Shown one piece after another: positions 1-26,639 of a stretch of DNA of 64,000 nucleotides. Each line of letters begins with the position of its first letter. Within the stretch, counting starts at the first letter, position 1. Under the pieces are notes generated by a model. It made no database searches and was not told the DNA's origin. It worked only from the letters and a program-made list of their open reading frames with translations. Source of the DNA: Sabulibacter ruber (lineage in GTDB: Bacteria; Bacteroidota; Bacteroidia; Cytophagales; Hymenobacteraceae); the NCBI RefSeq assembly GCF_017355955.1, contig NZ_JAFFID010000001.1, positions 2,542,001-2,606,000 of the forward strand, read 5' to 3'. The position numbers and the translations under genes are program-made.

Positions 1-1257
1 AGCAACGACGCCGACTGGATCAACTTCGAGACTGTGGTAAGCACCGTGCCCGATCAGATTGCGCTGGCCCCCGGTTACCTGCAGAAAGAGTGGACTAAAA
101 GCGGACGCCGTTACTTCCACTACAAAATGGATTCGCCCATCCTGAACTTCTATTCCTTCCTGTCTGCCGACTATGAGGTGAAAAAGGATAAGTGGAAAGA
201 CGTAGCCATTGAGGTGTATTACCAGAAAGGCCACGAGTACAACCTGGACCGCATGATCAAAGGCGTGAAGAAATCCCTGGATTATTACACGGCCAACTTC
301 AGTCCGTACCAGCACCGGCAGGTGCGTATCCTGGAGTTCCCGGGCTACAGTGCCTTTGCGCAGGCGTTCCCCAATACCATTCCGTTCTCGGAGTCCATCG
401 GGTTTATTGCCGATGTGGATGACAAAGACCCCGAGGACATCGATTATCCGTTCTACGTGACGGCCCACGAAGTCGCGCACCAGTGGTGGGCGCACCAGGT
501 CATCGGCGGCGATGTGCAGGGCTCCACGCTGATGTCCGAGACCATGAGCCAGTACTCGGCCCTGATGGTGATGAAGAAGGAATACGGTGCCGAGCGCATG
601 AAGAAGTTCCTGAAGTACGAGATGAACAACTACCTGCTGGGCCGAGCCGGCGAGCGCAAGAAAGAACTGCCGCTGGCGCTGGTGGAAAACCAGCAGTACA
701 TTCATTACCGCAAGGGATCGGTGGTGATGTACGCCCTGGCAGACTACATCGGCGAAGACAAACTGAACGCGGCCTTGAAGGAATACGTGCAGAAAGTGGC
801 GTTCCAGCAGGCGCCGTACACCAACTCGGTGGAGTTTTTGAGCTACATTCGCAAAGCCACCCCCGATTCTCTGCAATACCTGGTAGACGATATGTTTGAA
901 AACATCACGCTCTACGAGAACAAAGCCACTGAAGCCTCGGCGGTGAAGCAGAAAGACGGTTCCTATAAAGTGACCTTCACCGTGGACGCTAAAAAATTCC
1001 GCGCAGATAGTCTGGGCAATGAAAGCCAGGCCAAGCTTAACGATTACATAGACGTGGCCGTGATGACCCGTAAAAAGATTGACGGCAACTGGCAGGATGC
1101 CCCGCTGTACCTGCAGAAACAACGCATCAAAGCCGGGCAGAATAAACTGGAGATCATTGTGAAGGAGAAACCGCAGAAAGCAGGCATAGATCCTTTCAAC
1201 AAACTTATTGACCGCAACCCAGAGGACAACCTGAAAGAGGTAACGGTAAAATCCTAA
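1..1257 (+). CDS. M1-family zinc aminopeptidase domain, C-terminal part (5' end outside window)
   Basis: The frame is open from the first base, so the true start lies upstream; about 418 codons are visible. Zinc-binding motif HEVAH is encoded at 466-480, followed 19 residues later by the third ligand in SETMSQYSAL. This is the gluzincin (M1) arrangement with one extra residue in the usual 18-residue spacing. The stretch around QGSTLMSETMSQYSALMVM is typical of Bacteroidota proteins in which an ABC-permease-like N-terminus is fused to an M1 peptidase. That fusion cannot be confirmed because the N-terminus is missing. After the catalytic part, roughly the last 120 residues look like a beta-rich C-terminal domain. 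A strong hairpin terminator follows within 25 bp, so this is the last gene of its transcript. Expected role: peptide hydrolysis at or near the inner membrane. Confidence 0.85.
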   Translation, partial: SNDADWINFETVVSTVPDQIALAPGYLQKEWTKSGRRYFHYKMDSPILNFYSFLSADYEVKKDKWKDVAIEVYYQKGHEYNLDRMIKGVKKSLDYYTANFSPYQHRQVRILEFPGYSAFAQAFPNTIPFSESIGFIADVDDKDPEDIDYPFYVTAHEVAHQWWAHQVIGGDVQGSTLMSETMSQYSALMVMKKEYGAERMKKFLKYEMNNYLLGRAGERKKELPLALVENQQYIHYRKGSVVMYALADYIGEDKLNAALKEYVQKVAFQQAPYTNSVEFLSYIRKATPDSLQYLVDDMFENITLYENKATEASAVKQKDGSYKVTFTVDAKKFRADSLGNESQAKLNDYIDVAVMTRKKIDGNWQDAPLYLQKQRIKAGQNKLEIIVKEKPQKAGIDPFNKLIDRNPEDNLKEVTVKS

Positions 1258-1276
1258 CCGTCTCTTACCATTACAG

Positions 1277-1310
1277 AAAGCCCGGCTCCTTACAAGGCCG
1301 GGCTTTTCTT
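1277..1310 (+). terminator. Rho-independent terminator after the M1 peptidase
   Basis: Perfect 10-bp arms AAAGCCCGGC (1277-1286) and GCCGGGCTTT (1297-1306) with a 10-nt loop, followed by TTCTT. Confidence 0.85.
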
Positions 1311-1529
1311 GCCCAAAGCTGGGTACTTATCATAGGGCATGCTATAGTCAGATTGGGTTAATTGAAGGCGATAAAAGAAAGAAAACCGTTGAGAAGATCG
1401 CCTTAAAGTCTTTTTATAAACCATCCTTTTGAGAATGGTTTCGGATGTGTTTTCCGAAAATCAGGTCAGAAACGGCTCATCCCTATTACCGGCAGAAGCG
1501 TATATAAAAGTTCACCAAACTTCAAGCCT

Positions 1530-17241: not shown

Positions 17242-18708
17242 TTATCTAGTTGCATTTAAAGGATACTGCCGATTTACTTTGTCCAGCACCACGTACAGTG
17301 AATCTTTAGTTGATGTAATCCCGGTTAGGATGATTCGGGTGGCGTTGGGCCGGGTGTAATGCAAAATCATTTTCTCTTTTTTAAGCTTAGAGGCAGCTTT
17401 TGCGTTACTTCTATTTTGGCCATTCTGGCCTCCGCCCCTTCTACCTTCTCCGCCTGCATTTCCGTGTTTATCCTGGAGGGTGAGGGTTTGGTTCAGGGTA
17501 TCGGCAGCGTAGTAGAAAAACCGCCTTCCTCCGGCGATGCCGGTGAGCTCCCAGGTGCGGGACTCGTCTTTCTTATGGGGCACCCCGTTGGAGAGATCCA
17601 GCTTCACTTTTTGGTTGACTTTGAACGTAAGGGTGGAATGTTTCTCAAACGTGGCGTCCTGCCACCGCACCGAGTCAGTGGGCGAATAAGGCAGCACTTT
17701 GTTGTTGAGTCTGAACTCGGTGACTTGATAATAGCCTTCGGCACCCGCCAAGCCCGGGGTCACGGGTACTTTGATGAGCTTTTCTTCCCGGTAGTTGAGC
17801 ACATGCAGGTAAGCCATTAATCCAAGATAGGTGAAGATGGGAATCGCTTTCAAAACGTATCGGCCGTATTGCTGCCAGGGCTTCTGGAAAGCGGGATAAT
17901 GGTACACCGGCACCACGTCCTGCTCCAGCACAAGCAATTTCCAGAGCCGGGGAAGGTCATACAGCATCAGGAACAAGGCCAGGATCACAAAATAAGCGCT
18001 GTACACGTGCACCCCGCCGTCATAGGCATGGTTGATGTACACGATGTTGGCCGAGGCTCCGGCCGTGAGCGCCGCCCCCAGAAAGGTCGTCCGGCGGAAG
18101 AAAAGAAGCGTCCCGGCCAGGATCTCCACGAAGCCTAGGAAAATTTCATAATGCGGCACGATGCCCACCGACAACCAATACAATTTCTGTGCGGTGATAT
18201 CGCCTAGGTTGGTAGCCAGCGTGCCCTGCGGCGGAAACGGCATCTGGATGAGAAACAGCTTCACAAACCCGAACTCAATCATGCCCAGCGCCACCCGGTA
18301 GCGCACCAGCACCCGCAGCCAATAGTAGAGCCTGTTGTATTCTCTGCGTCTGGCCCCACCCACCGACCAAATCACCGCCCCGGCCAGCGCCACTGCCAGA
18401 ATCAGCCCGAAATCTGCGTAACTGACCAAGCCCCAGCGGGCGCTTTCTCCCTCCAATTCCAGAAATTTAGGCGAAAAACGGGCCAGGTTGGTCAAGTCGC
18501 GGTAACCCAAATGGAGCCAGTCCAGCGCCACCAGATCTTCATAGTACTGCCAACTGGTGGGCAAACTCATGATGACGAAAAAGATGAACGCCACCCTGAA
18601 CAGGAACCGTTGCAGAGGAGTCCAGCCCTTAGGTTCTGATATAGACTCATTAGAAGAATCCCGGGACAAGGTCAGGGTTGGCGCAGGGAGCGTATCTACG
18701 GGTTGCAT
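17242..18708 (-). CDS. DoxX-like integral membrane protein with C-terminal soluble domain (second paralogue)
   Basis: 488 residues. About eight hydrophobic segments (roughly residues 35-320) with WYxxxxRYRVALGMIEFGFVKLF-like and EILAGTLLFFRRTTFLGAALTAG motifs are typical of DoxX/HTTM-like membrane proteins. A soluble C-terminal domain (about 325-488) starts at GYYQVTEFRLNNKVLPYS and contains TDSVRWQDATFEK, a low-complexity Gly/Asn/Arg insert (GGEGRRGGGQNGQN), and ends in DSLYVVLDKVNRQY. The C-terminal domain has clear equivalents in its neighbour (GCYQVREFKLNGKLLPFS, TDSVRWHDVVIEK, DSLYVVLDKVEKDY), so the two arose by duplication. It lies 38 bp downstream of the paralogue and ends the operon. 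DoxX proteins include subunits of thiosulfate:quinone oxidoreductase, but the function here is unknown. Confidence 0.75.
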   Translation of the reverse strand: MQPVDTLPAPTLTLSRDSSNESISEPKGWTPLQRFLFRVAFIFFVIMSLPTSWQYYEDLVALDWLHLGYRDLTNLARFSPKFLELEGESARWGLVSYADFGLILAVALAGAVIWSVGGARRREYNRLYYWLRVLVRYRVALGMIEFGFVKLFLIQMPFPPQGTLATNLGDITAQKLYWLSVGIVPHYEIFLGFVEILAGTLLFFRRTTFLGAALTAGASANIVYINHAYDGGVHVYSAYFVILALFLMLYDLPRLWKLLVLEQDVVPVYHYPAFQKPWQQYGRYVLKAIPIFTYLGLMAYLHVLNYREEKLIKVPVTPGLAGAEGYYQVTEFRLNNKVLPYSPTDSVRWQDATFEKHSTLTFKVNQKVKLDLSNGVPHKKDESRTWELTGIAGGRRFFYYAADTLNQTLTLQDKHGNAGGEGRRGGGQNGQNRSNAKAASKLKKEKMILHYTRPNATRIILTGITSTKDSLYVVLDKVNRQYPLNATR

Positions 18709-18746: not shown

Positions 18747-20060
18747 TTACAGGGTGACCGGCTTCCGGCGACCTTTGTAGAGCAGGTAGTCTTTCTCCAC
18801 CTTGTCCAATACCACGTACAGCGAGTCTTGCCGTTCATTGCGCCCACTTAAGACTAGCGTAGCCGCCGATGGTTTCCTGTAGCGGAGTTCCCATTGCTCA
18901 ATCTTCTGGTCTTGGTGCAGGGGAAGCATAGTCAAGGTCTGCCGGAGGGAATCTACTTTCAGTTTGAAATACTGGCGACCGCCGTTACCTGCCGCCTCTG
19001 CCGGCACCTGGGTACCGGTTTTGGTGATGGGCGTAACCGCCGAATGCCCCGGCCCCCTGTTGATGCTGAGTGTCGGCCATTTCTCGATTACCACATCGTG
19101 CCAGCGAACGGAATCTGTCTGAGAGAAAGGCAGCAATTTCCCGTTGAGTTTGAACTCCCGCACCTGATAGCAACCAGCCTCCGCCGACAAAGCCCCGGAT
19201 TGGCTTTCCTGTTTTTGGGCGTTCTCCTGCAGAGCCAAATAACCAAGAATGGCTAGACTGAAAACAGTAACGCTTTTCACAGCAAGTTGAAGCAGCTTAA
19301 ACCAGCCTGCCGAAATAGTTACCCTTACTTTATTAGCGGCAGTAGGCCGTTCCAGCAGCAGCAAATTCACCACCCGTGGCACATCCTGCACCAGCAGGAA
19401 CAACGCCAAAGTCAACAGGAAAGCGCTGTACACCAGATCACCCACCTCATAAAAGAGGTTCACGGCAATCACGTTCAACAGGAAGGCGGCGGCTATGGCG
19501 GCGCCAAACGTTGCGGTTCTTCTATAGAGCAACAAAAGCCCGGCTCCCAGTTCTATCAACCCGATCACTGTTTCATAAGAGGCCGAGGCTAATCCTGTGG
19601 TGAGCCAATAGATTTTCCAGGGCAGGAAATCGCCGTAGTTGGTGTTCAGTTCGCTCAAGGTGGGAGCCGGCATCTGCAGGTGGAAGACCTTCAGAAAACC
19701 GTAGGCCATTATCCCAAGCGCCAGCCGGTATCGCACCAAGGCTTTCAACCAATAGTACTCTTGGTGGTACTCAGGCCGCCGTTTGTCCCAAGCTCCCCAG
19801 AGAATACTCCCAGTAGCCGCTCCCAGCGCCAGAATCAACCAATCCAGAAAACTTTCCTGAGCCTGGAAACGGGGCAGATAGCGGCTCAACTGTACAATCT
19901 CAGATAAATCTAGCGGCCAGTGCAGCGTAAACAAACTGTGGTAGAACTTCCAGTTGATGGGGACGATCTGCAGCAGGAAATACAGGAAGAAGAGCCGGAA
20001 GGCTGCTTTTTCCAGCGGGCTCCACGCTGTTGTCGGGGTGAGGTTCTGTACTTGCGTCAT
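18747..20060 (-). CDS. DoxX-like integral membrane protein with C-terminal soluble domain (first paralogue)
   Basis: 437 residues with the same architecture as the next gene. An N-terminal transmembrane block (about 15-300) shares YYWLKALVRYRLALGIMAYGFLKVF with the YYWLRVLVRYRVALGMIEFGFVKLF pattern of the paralogue (compared in pieces). The soluble C-terminal domain (about 300-437) carries TDSVRWHDVVIEK and DSLYVVLDKVEKDY. It starts at an ATG at 20060, 6 bp after the susD-like stop, implying tight cotranscription and possibly translational coupling. The low-complexity insert of its partner is absent. A role in electron transfer or sulfur oxidation is possible by analogy with DoxD but unsupported by any active-site residue I can name. 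Confidence 0.75.
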   Translation of the reverse strand: MTQVQNLTPTTAWSPLEKAAFRLFFLYFLLQIVPINWKFYHSLFTLHWPLDLSEIVQLSRYLPRFQAQESFLDWLILALGAATGSILWGAWDKRRPEYHQEYYWLKALVRYRLALGIMAYGFLKVFHLQMPAPTLSELNTNYGDFLPWKIYWLTTGLASASYETVIGLIELGAGLLLLYRRTATFGAAIAAAFLLNVIAVNLFYEVGDLVYSAFLLTLALFLLVQDVPRVVNLLLLERPTAANKVRVTISAGWFKLLQLAVKSVTVFSLAILGYLALQENAQKQESQSGALSAEAGCYQVREFKLNGKLLPFSQTDSVRWHDVVIEKWPTLSINRGPGHSAVTPITKTGTQVPAEAAGNGGRQYFKLKVDSLRQTLTMLPLHQDQKIEQWELRYRKPSAATLVLSGRNERQDSLYVVLDKVEKDYLLYKGRRKPVTL

Positions 20061-20066
20061 GACTTA

Positions 20067-21419
20067 TTAATACCCTTCGTTTTGGACCAGCGCTTTGTCT
20101 AGGGTGATTTCATCCACCGGCAGCGGCAGCACGTAGCGGCGGGCATCGGTGAGGCCCAGCACGGCCGCGGCCCGGTCGGTTCTCACCAGGTCAAACCAGC
20201 GGTGCGGCTCAAAGGCGAACTCTATGCGGCGCTCGTTCTCAATCGCTAACAATAAGGCTGCCTGATCGGTGATGGGAGTGAGCGCGGGAAGATCGGCGCG
20301 GCTCCGGACGGCGTTCAGGTCAGCCAAGGCTCCTTCCAGTTTAGTGGTGCCTCCTTGTTGGGCGCGGGCTTCGGCTCGGATGAGATACAACTCTGCGATG
20401 CGGATTACATAGGCGGGATCGGTGGCCGGGCTGCGGTAGTAGAGGTTTCCGTACCAGCGTCCATCGGCGGTTTTGGAGACCAGGGCACTGCGGTTCCCGC
20501 CAATGGCTGGATTGCTGACCAAGTCCACGAATGCGGTGTTTGGGGCCCATTGCCGGGTGCCGCCATTGGTGGGTGGTTGCCAGTTCCCGCGGTGGCTGTT
20601 GGTATTGGCGGCGCTGTAGGCCAGCTCAAACACTGATTCCTGCGAAGCCACCACGTTGTTGGCCCACCATGCCGAATAAGGCTTGACCAGGGTGTAGTTT
20701 CCTTCGCCAATCAACTTAGAGGCATATTCCTCGGCCAGAGCCCATTCTTTCTGGTACAGGTGGTATCGCGCCCGCAACGCCCAAACGGTTTTCTGGGTAG
20801 CCCTGATGCGGTTGGTGGTGTTGGGCAGCAGTTTCTCCGCTTCTGTTAAGTCTTTCAAGACCTGCGCGTAAGTATCCGCGACCATGCTGCGCGGGATGCC
20901 CCGGTTATCGGTGGCGGTGAGGGTGGGTTGCAAGTAAAGGGGCACGCCGCCCCACACCCGCGCCAAGTCAAAGTAAGACAGGGCCCGCACAAAGTAGGCC
21001 TCGCCCAGTAACTGGTCTTTCTTGGCCTGGGGAAAGGAAGGTTCCAAAGGCAAGGTAGGCACTTTGGCGATCACGTGGTTCGCGCTGTTGATGGTCTTGT
21101 AAATAGAAGACCATAACGTGGAGAGAATGGAGTTATCGGCGCGTACTTCATGGTTCACGAACTGCCCGGTGATGGCCTGCGAGCCGGTCCACTGGATGTT
21201 GTCGCCGGACAGGTACCCGATGGACGGAAAAGTGGTGCCATAGTACCCGTTCGCCGACAAGGTGCGGTACATTCCCCTAACGGCGGTCTCGGCGGAGGCG
21301 CCGTCCAGGATAGTTTGCTCGTCAGAGACGTATTGTTTCGGCTCCACGTCCAAAAAGCTGTCGCAGGAGACGGCGGTGAAGGCCAGGAAAAAGGCAAGGA
21401 GATATTGAGGCGTTTTCAT
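20067..21419 (-). CDS. RagB/SusD family nutrient-uptake lipoprotein
   Basis: 450 residues from the ATG at 21419. The start is chosen because it opens a lipoprotein signal, MKTPQYLLAFFLAFTAVSC, with Cys at residue 19. Upstream in-frame codons overlap the end of susC and are not signal-like. After the lipobox, DSFLDVEPKQYVSDE is the standard SusD N-terminus. The C-terminal RagB/SusD block includes RIAELYLIRAEARAQ and IENERRIEFAFEPHRWFDLV. It sits on the outer-membrane surface and caps its SusC partner. The gene begins 22 bp after susC. The substrate cannot be told from sequence: no glycosidase or peptidase is in the operon, which instead contains two DoxX-like proteins. Confidence 0.93.
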   Translation of the reverse strand: MKTPQYLLAFFLAFTAVSCDSFLDVEPKQYVSDEQTILDGASAETAVRGMYRTLSANGYYGTTFPSIGYLSGDNIQWTGSQAITGQFVNHEVRADNSILSTLWSSIYKTINSANHVIAKVPTLPLEPSFPQAKKDQLLGEAYFVRALSYFDLARVWGGVPLYLQPTLTATDNRGIPRSMVADTYAQVLKDLTEAEKLLPNTTNRIRATQKTVWALRARYHLYQKEWALAEEYASKLIGEGNYTLVKPYSAWWANNVVASQESVFELAYSAANTNSHRGNWQPPTNGGTRQWAPNTAFVDLVSNPAIGGNRSALVSKTADGRWYGNLYYRSPATDPAYVIRIAELYLIRAEARAQQGGTTKLEGALADLNAVRSRADLPALTPITDQAALLLAIENERRIEFAFEPHRWFDLVRTDRAAAVLGLTDARRYVLPLPVDEITLDKALVQNEGY

Positions 21420-21441: not shown

Positions 21442-24400
21442 TTAGAGGATGATGTCAACCCCAAACTGCACCGAACGCGGCTGTGGCGGTGTCCCGAAGT
21501 CAAGGCCTTTCACATTCTGGTCATTGGTGACATTGGTCTCGGGATCAAGCCCTGAGTAATTGGTGAGCAGCCACAGGTTGGTGCCCACCGCGTACACCCG
21601 CAGTTTCTGGGTGCGCAGCTTAGACGTAATGGCTTTAGGAAGCGTGTAACCCACGGTAAATGACTTCAGGCGCAGGAAAGAACCGTCTTCCAGCAAGCGG
21701 CTGTTCTGCTCCAGGCGGTAGTTGTTGCCCACCGTGGTGAAGCGGGGCACATCGGTGATGTCGCCGGGTTTTTGCCATCTTTTGGTTGAATTGGCAAATA
21801 ATACGCGGTCAGCGCGGGTGCCTCCGGCCATGTCGAAGAACTCGTTCATGTTATAGACCTCATTTCCGTACTGGAAGGTGAACAGCAGCCCGGCGTCAAA
21901 GCCTTTGTAGGAGAAATTACTGGTGAGCCCCCCGTAGAAATCAGGCATGGCGTTGCCCATGAGTTGCCGGTCGGCCACGGTAATCTGGCCGTCCTGGTTC
22001 ACGTCTTCAAAGATCGCGTTCCCGGTTTGCGGGTCCACGTACAGTTGCTTGTACAGCCAGAACGTGTACAGCGAGTTACCCTGCTGCATCCTGAGCCAAT
22101 CGCGGCTGTAGACATTGATGGGCGAGGCCAGCTTCTCAATCTTGTTCTTGTTGCCCGAGAGGTTGAAACTGGTGCTCCACTGAAAGTCATTGGTTTGCAG
22201 GTTCACCGTGTTGATGCCTATCTCAAAGCCGGTGTTGCTCACCTCCCCGGCGTTCTGGTAGTAGGTATTGAAACCGGTGGTACCGGGCAGCGGCAGTTGC
22301 AGCAGCAGATCGGTGGTGTATTTGCGGTAGTAGTTCAGCTCCAGCCCCACGCGGCCTTTGAAGAAACTCACGTCCAGGCCGGCGTTCCATTGCTTGGTTT
22401 TCTCCCAGCTCAGGTCATTGTTGGCCAGTTGCTGAGGCGCCGTGCCCGGCCGGTCGCCGCTGGGGGTATTGTCTGGGTAGCTGGAGCCTCCGTTCCAGAG
22501 CCCGCGGGAAGCGAAGTTGCTGATGCCGTTCTGGTTTCCGGTGGTGCCGTAGCTGGCCCGCAACTTCAGATCCGAAAGGAACTCCACGTCTTTCAGGAAG
22601 GCTTCTTCTTTCAATCTCCAGGCCGCGCCTACCGAGTAGAACGTGCCCCACTGATTCCCGCTGGCGAACTTAGAAGAACCATCGGCCCGTACAGAGGCCT
22701 CCAGCAGGTATTTGCCGGCATAGTTGTAATCGATCCGGGAGAAGAACGAAGCCAGGCTAGACTTGGTCCAGCTCTCCGAGCCGATGCGCGTGGCCGCCGA
22801 GGAAATTAGGGTAAAGGAATTATTGGCAAAGTTGGTACCCTGCGCCGAGGTTCCCGAAGTAACATCGCCCTGGATGGAATTCCCCACCAATACGCCCAGG
22901 CTGTGGTCTCCGCCAAAAGCGGTCCGGTATTGCAAGGTCTGTTCATTTACCCAGGTGGTCTTCTGCGTGATAGCCGAAGTCGCCAAGCCGTTGGTAGGCG
23001 ATGCGCCCAGCAAGGTAAGCGTGTTCCAGTACTCAGACTCGTCATAGTTGTTATAGTCCAGGCCCCAACTGGTCCTGAACTTCAGGCCGGGCAGCAGCTC
23101 CGCATCCAGGTACAGGTTGCCCAGGTACCGGATGCTGGTGGTGGTCACGTCATAGTTGTTCAGTAGCACATCCAAGTTGTCCCACGGGCCCCATTTGGCG
23201 GGCGTGCCGTCCTCGTTCACTTTGGGCAGATAGGTGGCTACTAGCAACGCCGTCTGGAACATGCCGCCCTGCGGACCATCGCCGGCCCGGGCCTGGTTCC
23301 GGAAACTCCGGGAAAGATTGCTGCTGCTCCCGATCTGGATCTTATCAGTGATTTTCTGGTCCAGGTTCAGCCGGATGCTCGCCCGCTCAAAGTAGACAGG
23401 CTTCATGATGGATTCCTGCTTGGTATAGCCACCACCCAGGAAAAACTTGGTGCTTTCCGTTCCGCCTTGTACCGACAGGTCATAGTTTTTGAGGGAGGCC
23501 GTTCGGAAGATATCACTCAGCCGGTCATAGGTCTGCTGCTCCTCGGGCAAGCCGCGCCCACCTTCTGACCCCGGACGGAAAGGCCGGTTCTCATACGTCT
23601 GTTTTAAGGCCGGATTATCCAAACCAGAGTTAATCCAGGCTTCATTGTGGAGCGCGGCATTCTCGGGACCCGAGGCAATGTCCCATACTTTGGGCGTCCA
23701 GGCCCAGCCTTGGTATGCATTGAGGTTCACCCGGGGTTTGGTGTTGTACGCCCCGCGTTTGGTGGTCACGATGACTACTCCGTTGGCTGCCCGGGAACCA
23801 TAGATCGCCGTGGCGCTGGCGTCTTTCAGCACCTCGATGCTTTCAATGTCAGCGGGGTTGATGTCGGCGATGGGCGAAGTGGATTTTCCGCCGGTGTTTA
23901 CTGTTTGCAGGCTGGTGTTGTTCAGGAACACACCGTCTACAATATACAGCGGTTCGTTGCTGGCGTTGATGGAGGTATTCCCCCTGATCCGGATGAAAAT
24001 TCCTTCGCCGGGCACGCCGGTATTGGAGCTGATCTGTACCCCGGGCGCCTTGCCCTGCAACTGAGCGTCAAAACTGCCCACCGGAATCTGCTTGGTTTCC
24101 TCGGGGTTCACCTTGGCCACGGAGCTGATGAGGTTCTTGCGTTCCTGCGTGCCGTAGCCTACCACTACCACTTCTTCCAGGGCTTTGGTGTCTTCCGTTA
24201 AGGTGATTTGAAGATTGGTCTGCGCCCCGTTGAAGGATACTTCCCTGGAGAGAAACCCGATGTAAGAAATCAACAACGTTCCTGTCTCAGCAGGGGTTTT
24301 CAGCTGGAAACCGCCGTTGACATCGGTGGTCACGCCAATGGTGGTATTCTTCACCACCACCGACACGCCCGTCAGAGGCTCTCCTTTGGAGGTAGTTACT

Positions 24401-24534
24401 TTTCCGGACAGCGTGACCTCTGGTTTTCTGAAATAAGACACCCTTGCATTATCTATGGGTGTCGCTTCGGCAGAGAACCGGAAAAGGAAAGGCAATAACA
24501 AGACAGCACTGCTGAAACGTAGCAGTTTTTTCAT
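21442..24534 (-). CDS. SusC/RagA family TonB-linked outer-membrane transporter
   Basis: 1030 residues from the ATG at 24534 (MKKLLRF, signal peptide of about 24 residues). The domains are a carboxypeptidase-regulatory-like domain at about 40-115 (LSGKVTTSKGEPLTGVSVVV), a TonB-box-like EEVVVVGYGTQERK near 120, a plug at about 130-235 including the SusC signature SIEVLKDASATAIYGSRAANG, and then the 22-strand barrel. It transports a ligand captured by SusD into the periplasm with TonB energy. It is the first gene of a four-gene operon (susC-susD-doxX-doxX). The 5' leader is about 450 nt from a predicted promoter and encodes a poly-Cys mini-peptide, suggesting regulated expression. Confidence 0.94.
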   Translation of the reverse strand: MKKLLRFSSAVLLLPFLFRFSAEATPIDNARVSYFRKPEVTLSGKVTTSKGEPLTGVSVVVKNTTIGVTTDVNGGFQLKTPAETGTLLISYIGFLSREVSFNGAQTNLQITLTEDTKALEEVVVVGYGTQERKNLISSVAKVNPEETKQIPVGSFDAQLQGKAPGVQISSNTGVPGEGIFIRIRGNTSINASNEPLYIVDGVFLNNTSLQTVNTGGKSTSPIADINPADIESIEVLKDASATAIYGSRAANGVVIVTTKRGAYNTKPRVNLNAYQGWAWTPKVWDIASGPENAALHNEAWINSGLDNPALKQTYENRPFRPGSEGGRGLPEEQQTYDRLSDIFRTASLKNYDLSVQGGTESTKFFLGGGYTKQESIMKPVYFERASIRLNLDQKITDKIQIGSSSNLSRSFRNQARAGDGPQGGMFQTALLVATYLPKVNEDGTPAKWGPWDNLDVLLNNYDVTTTSIRYLGNLYLDAELLPGLKFRTSWGLDYNNYDESEYWNTLTLLGASPTNGLATSAITQKTTWVNEQTLQYRTAFGGDHSLGVLVGNSIQGDVTSGTSAQGTNFANNSFTLISSAATRIGSESWTKSSLASFFSRIDYNYAGKYLLEASVRADGSSKFASGNQWGTFYSVGAAWRLKEEAFLKDVEFLSDLKLRASYGTTGNQNGISNFASRGLWNGGSSYPDNTPSGDRPGTAPQQLANNDLSWEKTKQWNAGLDVSFFKGRVGLELNYYRKYTTDLLLQLPLPGTTGFNTYYQNAGEVSNTGFEIGINTVNLQTNDFQWSTSFNLSGNKNKIEKLASPINVYSRDWLRMQQGNSLYTFWLYKQLYVDPQTGNAIFEDVNQDGQITVADRQLMGNAMPDFYGGLTSNFSYKGFDAGLLFTFQYGNEVYNMNEFFDMAGGTRADRVLFANSTKRWQKPGDITDVPRFTTVGNNYRLEQNSRLLEDGSFLRLKSFTVGYTLPKAITSKLRTQKLRVYAVGTNLWLLTNYSGLDPETNVTNDQNVKGLDFGTPPQPRSVQFGVDIIL

Positions 24535-24744
24535 AAGAAGGTGAAAATTATAAAGTAGATAAAGTGGGTAAAGCTGGCCTACCCGCACATTGACGGCATG
24601 TGCCTTAAGAGCTTCAAACCCAATAGAAAATCAGAGTAGAGCGAGCATCCGGCAAGCACATACCTCTCCCAGCCCACGTTTAGCTGCTTTTCGGCAAGCT
24701 GATGTGGAGTATTGGGGAACAAGAAAGGCTATAAGGATTGGTTA

Positions 24745-24815
24745 GCTGTTGTACCTGCGGACGCAGCCAAGGGAAGGCAGGTGCCTGTCACGGAAGGGAA
24801 TCAACAACAACAGCA
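24745..24815 (-). promoter_or_regulatory. Possible cysteine-responsive attenuator structure in susC leader
   Basis: The region includes the Cys-codon run, hairpin arms ACCTGC (24782-24777 on the minus strand) and GCAGGT (24758-24753), and the ACAACAGC segment (24752-24745) complementary to the Cys codons. The segment abuts the hairpin, so pairing with the Cys codons would enclose it. Ribosome position on the Cys codons would therefore change folding. No T-run terminator is obvious, so the control output is unclear. Confidence 0.4.
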
Positions 24816-24830
24816 GTACAGGCTGAACAT
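24801..24830 (-). CDS. 9-codon leader ORF ending in four cysteine codons
   Basis: Minus-strand ATG at 24830 to TGA at 24801 encodes MFSLYCCCC. The Cys codons are TGC TGT TGT TGT. It lies about 160 nt after the predicted transcription start and 267 nt before the susC start. Bases 24814-24807 (GCTGTTGT, inside the first three Cys codons) are exactly complementary to ACAACAGC at 24752-24745 of the same RNA. Between them a hairpin ACCTGC/GCAGGT (24782-24753) can form. This is the layout of a translation-dependent attenuator sensing Cys supply. Translation is not shown; no SD is visible, which is usual in this phylum. Confidence 0.5.
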   Translation of the reverse strand: MFSLYCCCC

Positions 24831-24994
24831 GCAGAGGGAATGACCTAATGGATAGTGGCTCGGCCTCCATCGGCCCAGGAAGTTTACATCCTCGGGTGGT
24901 AAAAGATGACTTTCCATATGCGTAATGTTAGTAAGTGTTTCTTCTTGGCACCTCTTCTTCTACTCACATCCCTTAATCTCTATAGAATTGGTAG

Positions 24995-25027
24995 ACAAAT
25001 AAAGAAAACCATTTCAATATCACCAAA
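24995..25027 (-). promoter_or_regulatory. Promoter for the susC operon leader
   Basis: On the minus strand, TTTG (25027-25024), 21 bp, then TTTATTTG (25002-24995), a 7/8 match to TAnnTTTG with Bacteroidota spacing. Transcription would start near 24988, giving a leader of about 450 nt. The rest of 24535-25211 holds no gene other than the mini-ORF. I looked for SAM, TPP and cobalamin riboswitch motifs and found none. Confidence 0.5.
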
Positions 25028-25211
25028 CAAAATCTTCATTAATTAGCAGAATGGCTGTAAACGCAGTGGATTACTTCCCTCATTCTCAACACAAACAGAC
25101 AAACCTTCTCATTATTTAAACATGAAAGATCCCTGCTCCACAAAGAAAAGATATTCAACAATTAGATAAAGCTCCCGACCCTTGCATCAGTACCTGAACC
25201 CAGCGCAGGGT

Positions 25212-26639
25212 CTATGGCAGCGCTGCCTCCAGCATGGCTTCGCCAAATAAAAGCAAACTGGCCAGGGAAGCGGCCTGGTGCCTGATCTCCCGTAAAGCCG
25301 TGGATTCATACAGCAATCCTTTCAGCGGAGGACCTAAAGTGAATAGGTTCTCTATGGGTAGGCCTTCGGCGTTGAGCAGGTTCCCGGCAGGGGTGGCGGT
25401 TACGCCCATTTTCAGGTCATCGGGGCAGATCAAACCCTCGCTCAGCAATTGCTGCACCAGGGGATCTTTGCTTTTGGTGTAATCGCAGAGCGGACCGGTG
25501 CAGTTGATGACCATGGCAACTTCCAGTATTTGGGTACCGGTGTTGCCCCTCTCCCTGATCTCTGCGTGGACCATTTTCCCGTTGGCGTGGAGGTCCACCA
25601 GAGAGGCGGCTTTCACCTCTAGTTGCCCTTTCTCCTGCAGTTGCCGGAGCATGAGGGAAGAGGCAAGCGGCATCCGGTGCCGGTGTATTTCCCAATAGGG
25701 TTTCACATGCCTAAGGAACTGTTTTTTCTCCTGAAACGAAAAATTATGCCAGATACCCGAGAGCGAATCCCGCAAGGCATCTACCACGCTGTGCCAGGCA
25801 TACCCTTCCTGGGCAGCTTTTCTCACCTCTTTTCTGAGGAGTCGCATCGCTTTCAAAGGAGAAAGAGGCCGCTGAAGACGCACTGGAGCCAAAGGGTAAG
25901 GCACGGCGTCCACTTGATGGGTCTGCGGGAGCAAGCCATGCCGGGAAACCACGTATATTTTGCCCTGATGCCCTTTCTTTACCAGACTGCCCACCAGATC
26001 TACCATGGTCAGGCTGGAGCCCAGCAGCAGAACGGGCGCGTGCGCCGGCAACGCGTTCAGGATTTCCGGAGACCAGGGCGAGGCTTTGTACAGAGGACTC
26101 TGGTAAAAGGCTTTGTTGGGAATGGGAAGGTCGGCGGGCGGAAGATTACCAAGTGCCAGCACCACTTTCTGGGCCATTACCTGAGAGCCGTTTCTCAGTG
26201 ACACTGCAAAAGAATAGTTCTTCCCTCTTTTCTCCACAGCCAGCACCTCCTGAGTCAGCCGCACCAGCCGAACTCCTTTCAACGCATCGGCTTCGGCCAC
26301 CGCCAGGCAATCCTCTACGTAATCGCCGAAGACACATCGCGGAACAAAAGAGTCTGGGCTTATCGGGTCCGGCAAAAGCGTTGGATAGACGGGTTGGTGC
26401 TCCGTTAACCAATCCAGAAAATGATGGGGCATCTCGGGGAACAAGGTCATGCGGGCCGCCGGTACATTCAAAGGTTGGAAAGGCAAACTGCTGCTGTAGG
26501 CCACTCCCCGGTGCATTTTCCGGGGTTCCTTTTCTATGAGATAAACCGTGGTGGCCTCCCGGGCCGTTCTCAGCAGGTGGATAGCCGTCAGGGTCCCACT
26601 TAATCCTCCTCCCACAATGGCAATGCTTGTATGATCCAT
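25212..26639 (-). CDS. FAD/NAD(P)-binding protein (NAD_binding_9 / YdhS-like)
   Basis: 475 residues. It starts directly with a dinucleotide-binding motif, IAIVGGGLSGTLTAIHLLR (residues 6-24), then GVAYSSSLPFQPLNVPAARM and HHFLDWL, which mark the FAD/NAD(P)-binding family of YdhS/HcaD-like uncharacterised proteins. An internal ALGNLPP and a later VINCTGP motif fit the NAD(P) and FAD lobes. Related genes often neighbour cysteine dioxygenase or sulfur-metabolism genes in other bacteria, but I cannot verify that here. It lies upstream of and codirectional with the susC operon, separated by about 220 bp and a predicted promoter, so it is probably a separate transcript. Confidence 0.8.
   Translation of the reverse strand: MDHTSIAIVGGGLSGTLTAIHLLRTAREATTVYLIEKEPRKMHRGVAYSSSLPFQPLNVPAARMTLFPEMPHHFLDWLTEHQPVYPTLLPDPISPDSFVPRCVFGDYVEDCLAVAEADALKGVRLVRLTQEVLAVEKRGKNYSFAVSLRNGSQVMAQKVVLALGNLPPADLPIPNKAFYQSPLYKASPWSPEILNALPAHAPVLLLGSSLTMVDLVGSLVKKGHQGKIYVVSRHGLLPQTHQVDAVPYPLAPVRLQRPLSPLKAMRLLRKEVRKAAQEGYAWHSVVDALRDSLSGIWHNFSFQEKKQFLRHVKPYWEIHRHRMPLASSLMLRQLQEKGQLEVKAASLVDLHANGKMVHAEIRERGNTGTQILEVAMVINCTGPLCDYTKSKDPLVQQLLSEGLICPDDLKMGVTATPAGNLLNAEGLPIENLFTLGPPLKGLLYESTALREIRHQAASLASLLLFGEAMLEAALP

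Follow-up and report, generated by a model that had tools for sequence, protein, structure and literature searches.

The SusC-SusD operon on the minus strand of the window (the whole 64,000-nt stretch of DNA analysed here) is probably a sulfur-acquisition operon governed by a cysteine-responsive leader, a reading to which we give a probability of about 0.85. It builds on three features seen in the sequences of this and related genomes: a short upstream open reading frame (uORF) whose last codons form a Cys run and which recurs in homologous operons, a link between such uORFs and cysteine or sulfur genes, and a palindrome at the promoter.

The operon and its leader

The operon (window features lie on the minus strand unless stated otherwise) encodes a SusC/RagA TonB-dependent outer-membrane transporter (21442..24534; TIGR04056 at 886 bits against a cut-off of 368, and Pfam CarbopepD_reg_2, Plug and TonB_dep_Rec_b-barrel), a SusD-family lipoprotein (20067..21419; Pfam SusD_RagB and SusD-like_3, with a query that started one codon 5' of the ATG) and two membrane proteins (membrane protein 1, 18747..20060; membrane protein 2, 17242..18708) that are 37% identical to each other. 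Pfam and NCBIfam bore out the identities of SusC and SusD, and with them a SusCD system in one operon, as the initial annotation had it. The name DoxX that it gave to the membrane proteins found no such backing: neither had a family at E ≤ 0.001 in Pfam or NCBIfam, and at E ≤ 1 protein 1 had one unrelated match (0.18) and protein 2 none. One homologue of the membrane protein had a sub-threshold match to MauE (0.04), and AlphaFold gave no confident model of the membrane protein (mean pLDDT 37). Of 390 genomes in the order, 83 had a match to membrane protein 1 at E ≤ 1e-20. The DoxX-like genes found in the same genus (L023-L027) belong to a different locus, without SusCD.

Transcription is predicted to start near 24990, so that about 455 nt of leader precede the SusC ATG at 24534. 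This start follows from a promoter read by eye, with a -33-like TTTG (25024..25027) and, 20 nt from it, a -7-like element TTTATTTG (24996..25003) that agrees at 7 of 8 positions with TAnnTTTG, which we take to be the Bacteroidota-type promoter consensus; the Bacteroidota-type promoter and leader of roughly 450 nt that had been described are therefore found in place.

A nine-codon ORF, MFSLYCCCC, had been proposed within this leader. It is indeed present (ATG at 24830, TGA at 24803-24801) and its Cys run is real, but no stop interrupts its frame upstream as far as an ATG at 24917, and the nine codons are therefore probably the tail of a uORF of 38 codons plus stop (MESHLLPPEDVNFLGRWRPSHYPLGHSLCMFSLYCCCC; 24801..24917), a reading frame that has counterparts in the Cys-run uORFs of homologous leaders. 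The shorter form, started at 24830, may nevertheless be the actual uORF. In both forms four Cys codons (TGC TGT TGT TGT; 24804..24815) stand directly 5' of the TGA. The ATG at 24917 lies 77 nt past the start of the promoter palindrome and about 70 nt inside the predicted transcript, and relative to this predicted start the uORF is probably not leaderless. Directly 3' of its stop comes a C-rich stretch (24756..24800; C 0.42, G 0.22), a candidate Rho-loading region, and the untranslated leader beyond the uORF amounts to about 270 nt. The window leader thus has the make-up by which leader peptides are recognised, i.e., a short ORF with several Cys codons in a row close to its stop and, downstream on the same strand, an operon.

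No Rfam 15 model matched the window at its gathering score, nor did any at E ≤ 1 in 24500-25050. Because the leader DNA of the window had no match in 58 relatives besides its own genome, we examined the leaders of homologous operons instead.

Cys-run uORFs recur in homologous operons

We assembled two sets of homologous loci. The first (n=49) comprised the window, 40 high-scoring operon loci and 8 more; one locus (L243) was left out as it had no SusC-SusD pair, as were some further matches. All 40 of the 40 fetched loci contained SusC, SusD and two such membrane proteins, with SusC split into two ORFs in L120. For the replication set, named genomes were scanned with an alignment of membrane protein 1, which yielded 80 loci; we removed 16 whose leaders the first set had already contributed and 7 that offered no usable SusC leader, and 57 remained. 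In each leader we scanned 800 nt for a Cys-run uORF, defined as at least three consecutive Cys among the last six codons with an ATG no more than 70 codons from the stop, and compared the counts with dinucleotide shuffles and the reverse strand. As controls we took the 30 best-scoring TIGR04056 paralogue loci of 8 genomes with a uORF-bearing operon, a choice that was not random and in which one leader measured 420 nt rather than 800.

Cys runs were found in this operon class far beyond chance. Specifically, a Cys-run uORF was present in 9 of 49 first-set leaders (shuffles: mean 0.03, maximum 1 in 300 rounds; reverse strand: 0/49) and in 30 of 57 replication leaders (shuffles: mean 0.035, maximum 1 in 200 rounds), compared with none of the 30 paralogous SusC leaders from the 8 genomes. 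The idea of a Cys-codon leader thus survived the alignment that had been suggested as its check, namely whether homologous leaders keep the run near a stop. Under the same criterion, Leu gave 4 uORFs (of 49) and 7 (of 57), and the remaining residues 0-1. A looser rule that asked for two Cys among the final five codons was satisfied by 13 of 41 leaders against 3 of 41 reversed ones (shuffle mean 1.1, maximum 6), and across the 106 leaders an in-frame stop followed within three codons of a TGY run in 40 of 50 forward cases but in 0 of 7 on the reverse strand.

The uORFs of the replication set come from Pedobacter, Mucilaginibacter, Chitinophaga with two nearby MAGs, Dyadobacter, Pontibacter, Spirosoma and several other MAGs (e.g., MKNSSHNGRFEMLNIGISIYSCCMCCCC, MKTALVFTTRSRSETDSIQINLKQQLMVQSCCCCG, MNQLLLFTCCLRCCC and MKNIYSIRSHEGLSTFESNDIVLMQNRICCCC, each followed by a stop). 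Peptides of different genera have little in common except the Cys run. Its codons vary (98 TGT and 37 TGC, in 14 distinct codon strings among 39 uORFs), so that it is the amino acid which has been conserved. Several Pedobacter leaders are closely related, five of them almost identical, and the 30 uORFs therefore do not represent 30 independent events.

Altogether 39 of 106 leaders have a Cys-run uORF and 67 have none by the same criterion, so the control would be common in the operon class without being universal. These 67 leaders are what could be cited for a chance ORF in the leader of an operon unrelated to sulfur; the replication set (30 of 57 against a shuffle mean of 0.035) refutes this, barring an error in the set, and we regard it as scarcely credible.

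Near SusC, six loci (L088, L094, L095, L108, L122 and L238) also have a small ORF of one cluster (ACT_4 by Pfam in L094), which in L088, L108 and L122 sits between the Cys uORF and SusC.

Cys-run uORFs ahead of cysteine and sulfur genes

Similar uORFs precede other genes in the same genome. One, MVYTSYIKRMRFCCCSSCCCCF followed by a stop, lies 5' of cysH (the cysH model matched, and cysD adjoins by eye); a second, MKTDVFLKRAKKRMQGQFAGFGCCCCR, which ends in FGCCCCR before its stop, stands ahead of a TonB receptor and 3' of a tRNA-Cys gene; a third precedes an ATP-grasp gene, behind which lies that of a luciferase-like monooxygenase (best model SfnG, below cut-off). Two four-Cys patterns matched 9 distinct places of this genome, 3 of them free-standing uORFs and 6 within or against longer ORFs; the cysH uORF, with its TAG stop, was missed by the pattern and found by reading.

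Pattern scans of other genomes gave a four-Cys match in at least 51 of 59 related genomes and a five-Cys match in at least 129 of 395 genomes of the phylum. Among the matches listed we read 60 loci, 30 per scan. Most of the poly-TGY matches read fell inside or opposite longer ORFs or had no ATG and were discarded; twelve entries (11 distinct places) were free-standing ATG uORFs by our filter, among 59 loci (L140 had no entry), and L040, which failed the filter through an overlapping mechanical ORF, was kept by eye. One uORF, MFFLSHTCCCCCCC plus stop, lies directly 5' of cysS (L139, ORF 1-1440, minus strand; TIGR00435 above cut-off). Free-standing Cys-run uORFs also precede cysH in three congeners, in one of which the operon continues, by eye, with look-alikes of cysD, cysN, siroheme-synthesis and sulfite-reductase genes. 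Others stand ahead of a gene of OAH-sulfhydrylase type (L040, L128) and of a gene that by eye resembles uroporphyrin-III methyltransferase. In L127 a CCCCCC-stop leader is followed by SusC-SusD and three sulfatase-like genes (two tested with Pfam), a locus that from its layout looks cysteine-regulated. Finally, leaders with 6-9 Cys codons precede a PhyH-type dioxygenase gene in four loci of one genus (L150, L152, L155 and L157; L150 tested), and these PhyH-type genes perhaps serve sulfur scavenging.

The same distribution bears on whether the product is a functional Cys-rich peptide, metal- or thiol-binding or matured into a modified natural product, instead of a regulatory leader. Cys-run peptides can bind metals or be modified, which speaks for such a role; outside the Cys run, however, the sequences differ among genera, and a place ahead of cysH and cysS or behind a tRNA-Cys gene is what one expects of a Cys sensor. 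We therefore consider a functional peptide highly improbable.

The tRNA gene has a context of its own. In this genome a tRNA-Cys(GCA) gene (L163:1348-1419, minus strand) lies between a palindrome promoter and the poly-Cys uORF of the TonB receptor, and the order tRNA, Cys-run uORF, TonB receptor was seen by eye in 7 of 8 congeneric loci read (L204-L211); by the filter L207 has no Cys-run uORF, and ARAGORN assigns the tRNA of L211 to Phe. In three genomes of one genus (L214, L219 and L220/L234) a tRNA gene similar to this tRNA-Cys gene, with anticodon GCC by ARAGORN, precedes a peroxiredoxin-like ORF and a second SusC-SusD-membrane-protein operon, and in L214 and L219 a palindrome lies upstream of it. 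In one further genome, eleven matches to the four-Cys-stop pattern are spaced at multiples of 234 bp (G050:C5:10746-14270); the one read lies opposite a long ORF, and the array probably encodes a repeat protein.

Sulfur genes around homologous operons

In the window the operon is limited to the four core genes, and Pfam and NCBIfam identified no sulfur enzyme among its tested neighbours. Its link to sulfur comes from the neighbours of its homologues together with the genes found behind similar uORFs. Around the 49 operons of the first set (12-kb stretches), recurrent neighbours, counted as clusters in both sets, were S51 peptidase (10), ACT domain (6), Rrf2 (5), OAH/OAS sulfhydrylase (4), PhyH (4) and DUF4395 (4). 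Around the 57 of the replication set (mostly 19 kb) they were an FAD oxidoreductase (41), a YeiH-like transporter (31), SoxC-type sulfite dehydrogenase (25), cytochrome c (25) and S51 peptidase (15), with one or two members tested per cluster. BLAST of the replication set added Rrf2 (3), sulfhydrylase (2) and PhyH (1), while cysH, SfnG-like, sulfatase, ACT and peroxiredoxin queries found none. Representatives scored above cut-off with TIGR04555 (sulfite dehydrogenase SoxC; L307) and with a sulfhydrylase model, and the YeiH-like representative of L301 was above cut-off for Pfam PF03601 and below it for TIGR00698. Redox, peptidase and sulfur genes made up the recurrent neighbours that we tested.

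Partners of sulfhydrylase, SoxC and YeiH-like type suggest that the substrate is a sulfur compound. The initial proposal that a Cys leader on a SusCD operon points to a sulfur-containing substrate is in this respect borne out by homologous loci, from which the substrate of the window operon would follow.

A palindrome shared with cysH and a tRNA-Cys gene

The window promoter overlaps, at the predicted start, a palindrome CTACCAATTCTATAG (24980..24994) that matches CTAYYAAWTNNRTAG exactly and is a candidate operator, perhaps of an Rrf2-family protein. In its own genome CTAYYAAWTNNRTAG has 8 matches at 6 places, compared with 2 matches for the reversed pattern. The places are the window, cysH, the tRNA-Cys/TonB locus, a region with oxyR, dps and peroxiredoxin-like genes (by eye) and two sites within ORFs. 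Allowing one mismatch, we found it in 22 of 49 first-set leaders (shuffles 0.87, maximum 3), in 38 of 57 replication leaders (shuffles 1.5, maximum 5) and in none of the 30 SusC control leaders; since the consensus was drawn from some of the first 49, the replication set is the fairer test. At the same tolerance, 34 of the 39 leaders that have a Cys uORF contain the palindrome, as do 27 of the 67 that have none, and no palindrome was found 5' of the uORF in L108, L122 and L307. An Rrf2 gene lies near the operon in 5 of the 49 first-set and 3 of the 57 replication loci (by clusters and BLAST, three of the five tested with Pfam), and the palindrome is perhaps the operator of an Rrf2-family (CymR-like) regulator.

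Pairing, termination and translation

The initial annotation went on to describe a cysteine-sensing attenuator for the SusCD operon. Its Cys-codon leader ORF and its pointer to sulfur stood, the response to cysteine being what these would imply; its pairing switch did not. In an attenuator of the trp type, the Cys codons would pair with ACAACAGC (24745..24752), and a ribosome stalled on them would free that strand to disrupt a terminator. The letters are as described: GCTGTTGT at 24814-24807 is an exact 8-nt complement of ACAACAGC at 24752-24745, and the hairpin arms ACCTGC (24782-24777) and GCAGGT (24758-24753) are present, with ACAACAGC just beyond them. A 111-nt piece also folds with this pairing, though no better than shuffles (z -0.42), and the duplex itself is not above chance in the window (z -0.35, or -1.0 with a shorter strand). 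Nor was conservation of the complementary strand supported, an anti-Cys hexamer between uORF and SusC being found in only 2 of 8 first-set Cys-run leaders (the window and L108). Across 38 leaders the mean z of the duplex between Cys run and downstream sequence was -0.30 (sd 0.96), which for independent leaders would be about 1.9 standard errors below zero, so the pairing tendency is slightly in favour of the attenuator and at most slight. When the whole leader is folded to minimum energy, ACAACAGC has another partner, with the Cys codons free or occupied by a ribosome; blocking these codons leaves both the pairing of ACAACAGC and the accessibility of the SusC start unchanged in the predicted fold.

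As for terminators, none with at least 4 G-C pairs was found in the window leader or in five more of the 9 operon leaders (6/9 in all), and the other three had weak candidates. A laxer scan picked out a weak site at 24584-24566 (7 pairs, 3 G-C), one of 6 such sites found when 24200-25700 was scanned on both strands (1.5 in shuffles), and in L159, another poly-Cys leader, a strong terminator lies 22 nt past the stop. These two sites count for the attenuator, but the mutually exclusive antiterminator and terminator hairpins with a U-tract that define the classical trp type were not found, and we judge this mechanism improbable.

On the opposite strand of the window (24508-24526, plus strand) a terminator-like hairpin lies over the SusC start, and by eye an A-rich stretch and then a hairpin can be seen at this start in several homologous leaders, resembling the terminator of an antisense RNA. 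In Sphingobacteriaceae a conserved two-hairpin RNA lies 5' of SusC, and 3' of the uORF where one is present (L248:4313-4428 and homologues; L099:7547-7663, minus strand); its first stem covaries, and its second (TCAG/CTGA) closes a nearly invariant loop AACGCCAATCAC. A model of it retrieved 25 loci above 65 bits (18 in or near its own set), the next match in 1.95 Mb scoring 28 bits, and the copy of L248 had no match in Rfam. As it was not found in the window, we set it aside as a candidate for the mechanism. An Rfam scan of 12 homologous loci returned one SAM riboswitch (L099:8403-8506, plus strand), on the strand opposite to the operon and about 0.9 kb from the SusC start.

Control could also act without early termination, the position of the ribosome on the uORF setting mRNA structure, decay or re-initiation at SusC. 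Most of these leaders are without a strong terminator, the Flavobacterium-type PhyH leaders have a spacer of only about 45 AU-rich nt before the main gene, and PMC9031893 describes mycobacterial poly-Cys ORFs as controlling translation of the downstream genes. Against this stand the spacers of the operon leaders, which range from 64 to 603 nt between uORF and SusC, and a predicted access to the window SusC start that is the same with a stalled ribosome. We see such translational control as a rather unlikely, if serious, contender.

The composition downstream of the stop codons fits Rho loading. C exceeded G in the 45 nt past the stop in 21 of 21 poly-Cys uORFs (20 distinct; 9 operon leaders and 12 other poly-Cys leaders, picked to thin near-duplicates), compared with 42% of 184 other mini-ORF stops. 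The bias was weaker in the larger set of 39 operon leaders, with C above G in 31, the reverse in 3 and equality in 5, against 48% of 256 controls. For leaders of the window type we put forward a Rho step tentatively, at slightly less than even odds.

A proposed model of cysteine-responsive control

The cysteine-responsive leader that we favour would work as follows. Transcription would begin near 24990, and a ribosome would translate the 38-codon uORF up to its four Cys codons. With ample Cys-tRNA it would reach the stop and leave, exposing some 270 nt of untranslated leader, and most transcripts would then yield no SusC, SusD or membrane proteins; our best guess for this step is Rho-dependent termination, with Rho loading at the C-rich stretch just past the stop. 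With scarce Cys-tRNA the ribosome would stall on the Cys run and cover that stretch, so that the operon would be expressed and a sulfur-containing compound imported. The palindromic operator, common to the cysH operon and the tRNA-Cys gene, would probably form a second layer, perhaps with an Rrf2-family (CymR-like) protein. The stalling, the direction of the response, the Rho step, the regulator and the substrate are what we infer from the arrangement of these loci. Counting against the model are the 67 leaders that have no Cys-run uORF, the weaker C bias of the larger set, the distance of about 490-600 nt that separates uORF and SusC in Spirosoma-type loci, and the palindrome missing 5' of the uORF in L108, L122 and L307.

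On a wider scale, the odds seem to us about even that Bacteroidota possess a two-layer cysteine regulon in which a palindromic (Rrf2-type) operator is combined with a poly-Cys leader, probably Rho-dependent, and which spans sulfate assimilation through cysH, cysS, a tRNA-Cys gene co-transcribed with a TonB receptor and a widespread SusCD importer for organosulfur compounds, not glycans, often coupled to SoxC sulfite oxidation.

SusCD systems are usually taken as glycan importers. A cysteine-sensing leader that recurs on one SusCD class suggests that this class probably serves sulfur supply; the leader is also a handle for finding its substrate. Moreover, the combination of Cys-run uORF and palindrome offers a sequence signature for listing the sulfur regulon of the phylum, and nothing of the kind was among the literature matches listed. 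These matches, which covered few subscription papers, included no paper recognisable as being on poly-Cys leaders in Bacteroidota and none with SusC, SusD and DoxX together.

Comparison with known leader systems

In the tnaC leader of the E. coli tryptophanase operon, free tryptophan is sensed through the nascent peptide. The proposed logic is alike in that a stalled ribosome would mask a Rho site just past the uORF, and it differs in its signal, which is free tryptophan there and presumably charged tRNA-Cys here. PMC1262725 names tnaC and describes candidate Cys leader peptides in Actinobacteria, upstream of cys operons and cbs, for which its authors suggest Rho. Those leaders resemble ours in having Cys-codon runs near the stop and no conserved terminator hairpin. 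In the window, too, no clear intrinsic terminator precedes the gene (the laxer scan gives the weak 3-G-C site), and cysteine or sulfur target genes are seen for cysH, cysS and others and would, judging from homologues, include the window operon. They differ from the present ones, which occur in Bacteroidota with uptake operons, a TonB receptor behind tRNA-Cys, cysS and cysH.

The uORFC-8-2 of Rhodobacterales likewise places Cys codons before cysS, but, according to PMC8632094, its two tandem Cys codons are part of a stem, and a U-run is interpreted as an intrinsic terminator. The CymR/Rrf2 cysteine regulators (PMC9338935) share with our system the target, cysteine metabolism, and a family found beside some of the operons; the palindrome here is a candidate operator for such a protein. 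A further likeness is to the leaderless poly-Cys ORFs of mycobacteria (Canestrari et al. 2020, as cited in PMC9031893 and PMC13236596), which are also short ORFs with contiguous Cys codons before an operon, with cysteine sensing by ribosome speed proposed. In contrast to these, the uORFs described here belong to another phylum, are probably leadered, share a promoter palindrome and stand before a SusCD uptake operon as well, and they would carry poly-Cys leader control beyond Actinobacteria, into Bacteroidota and to genes of uptake.
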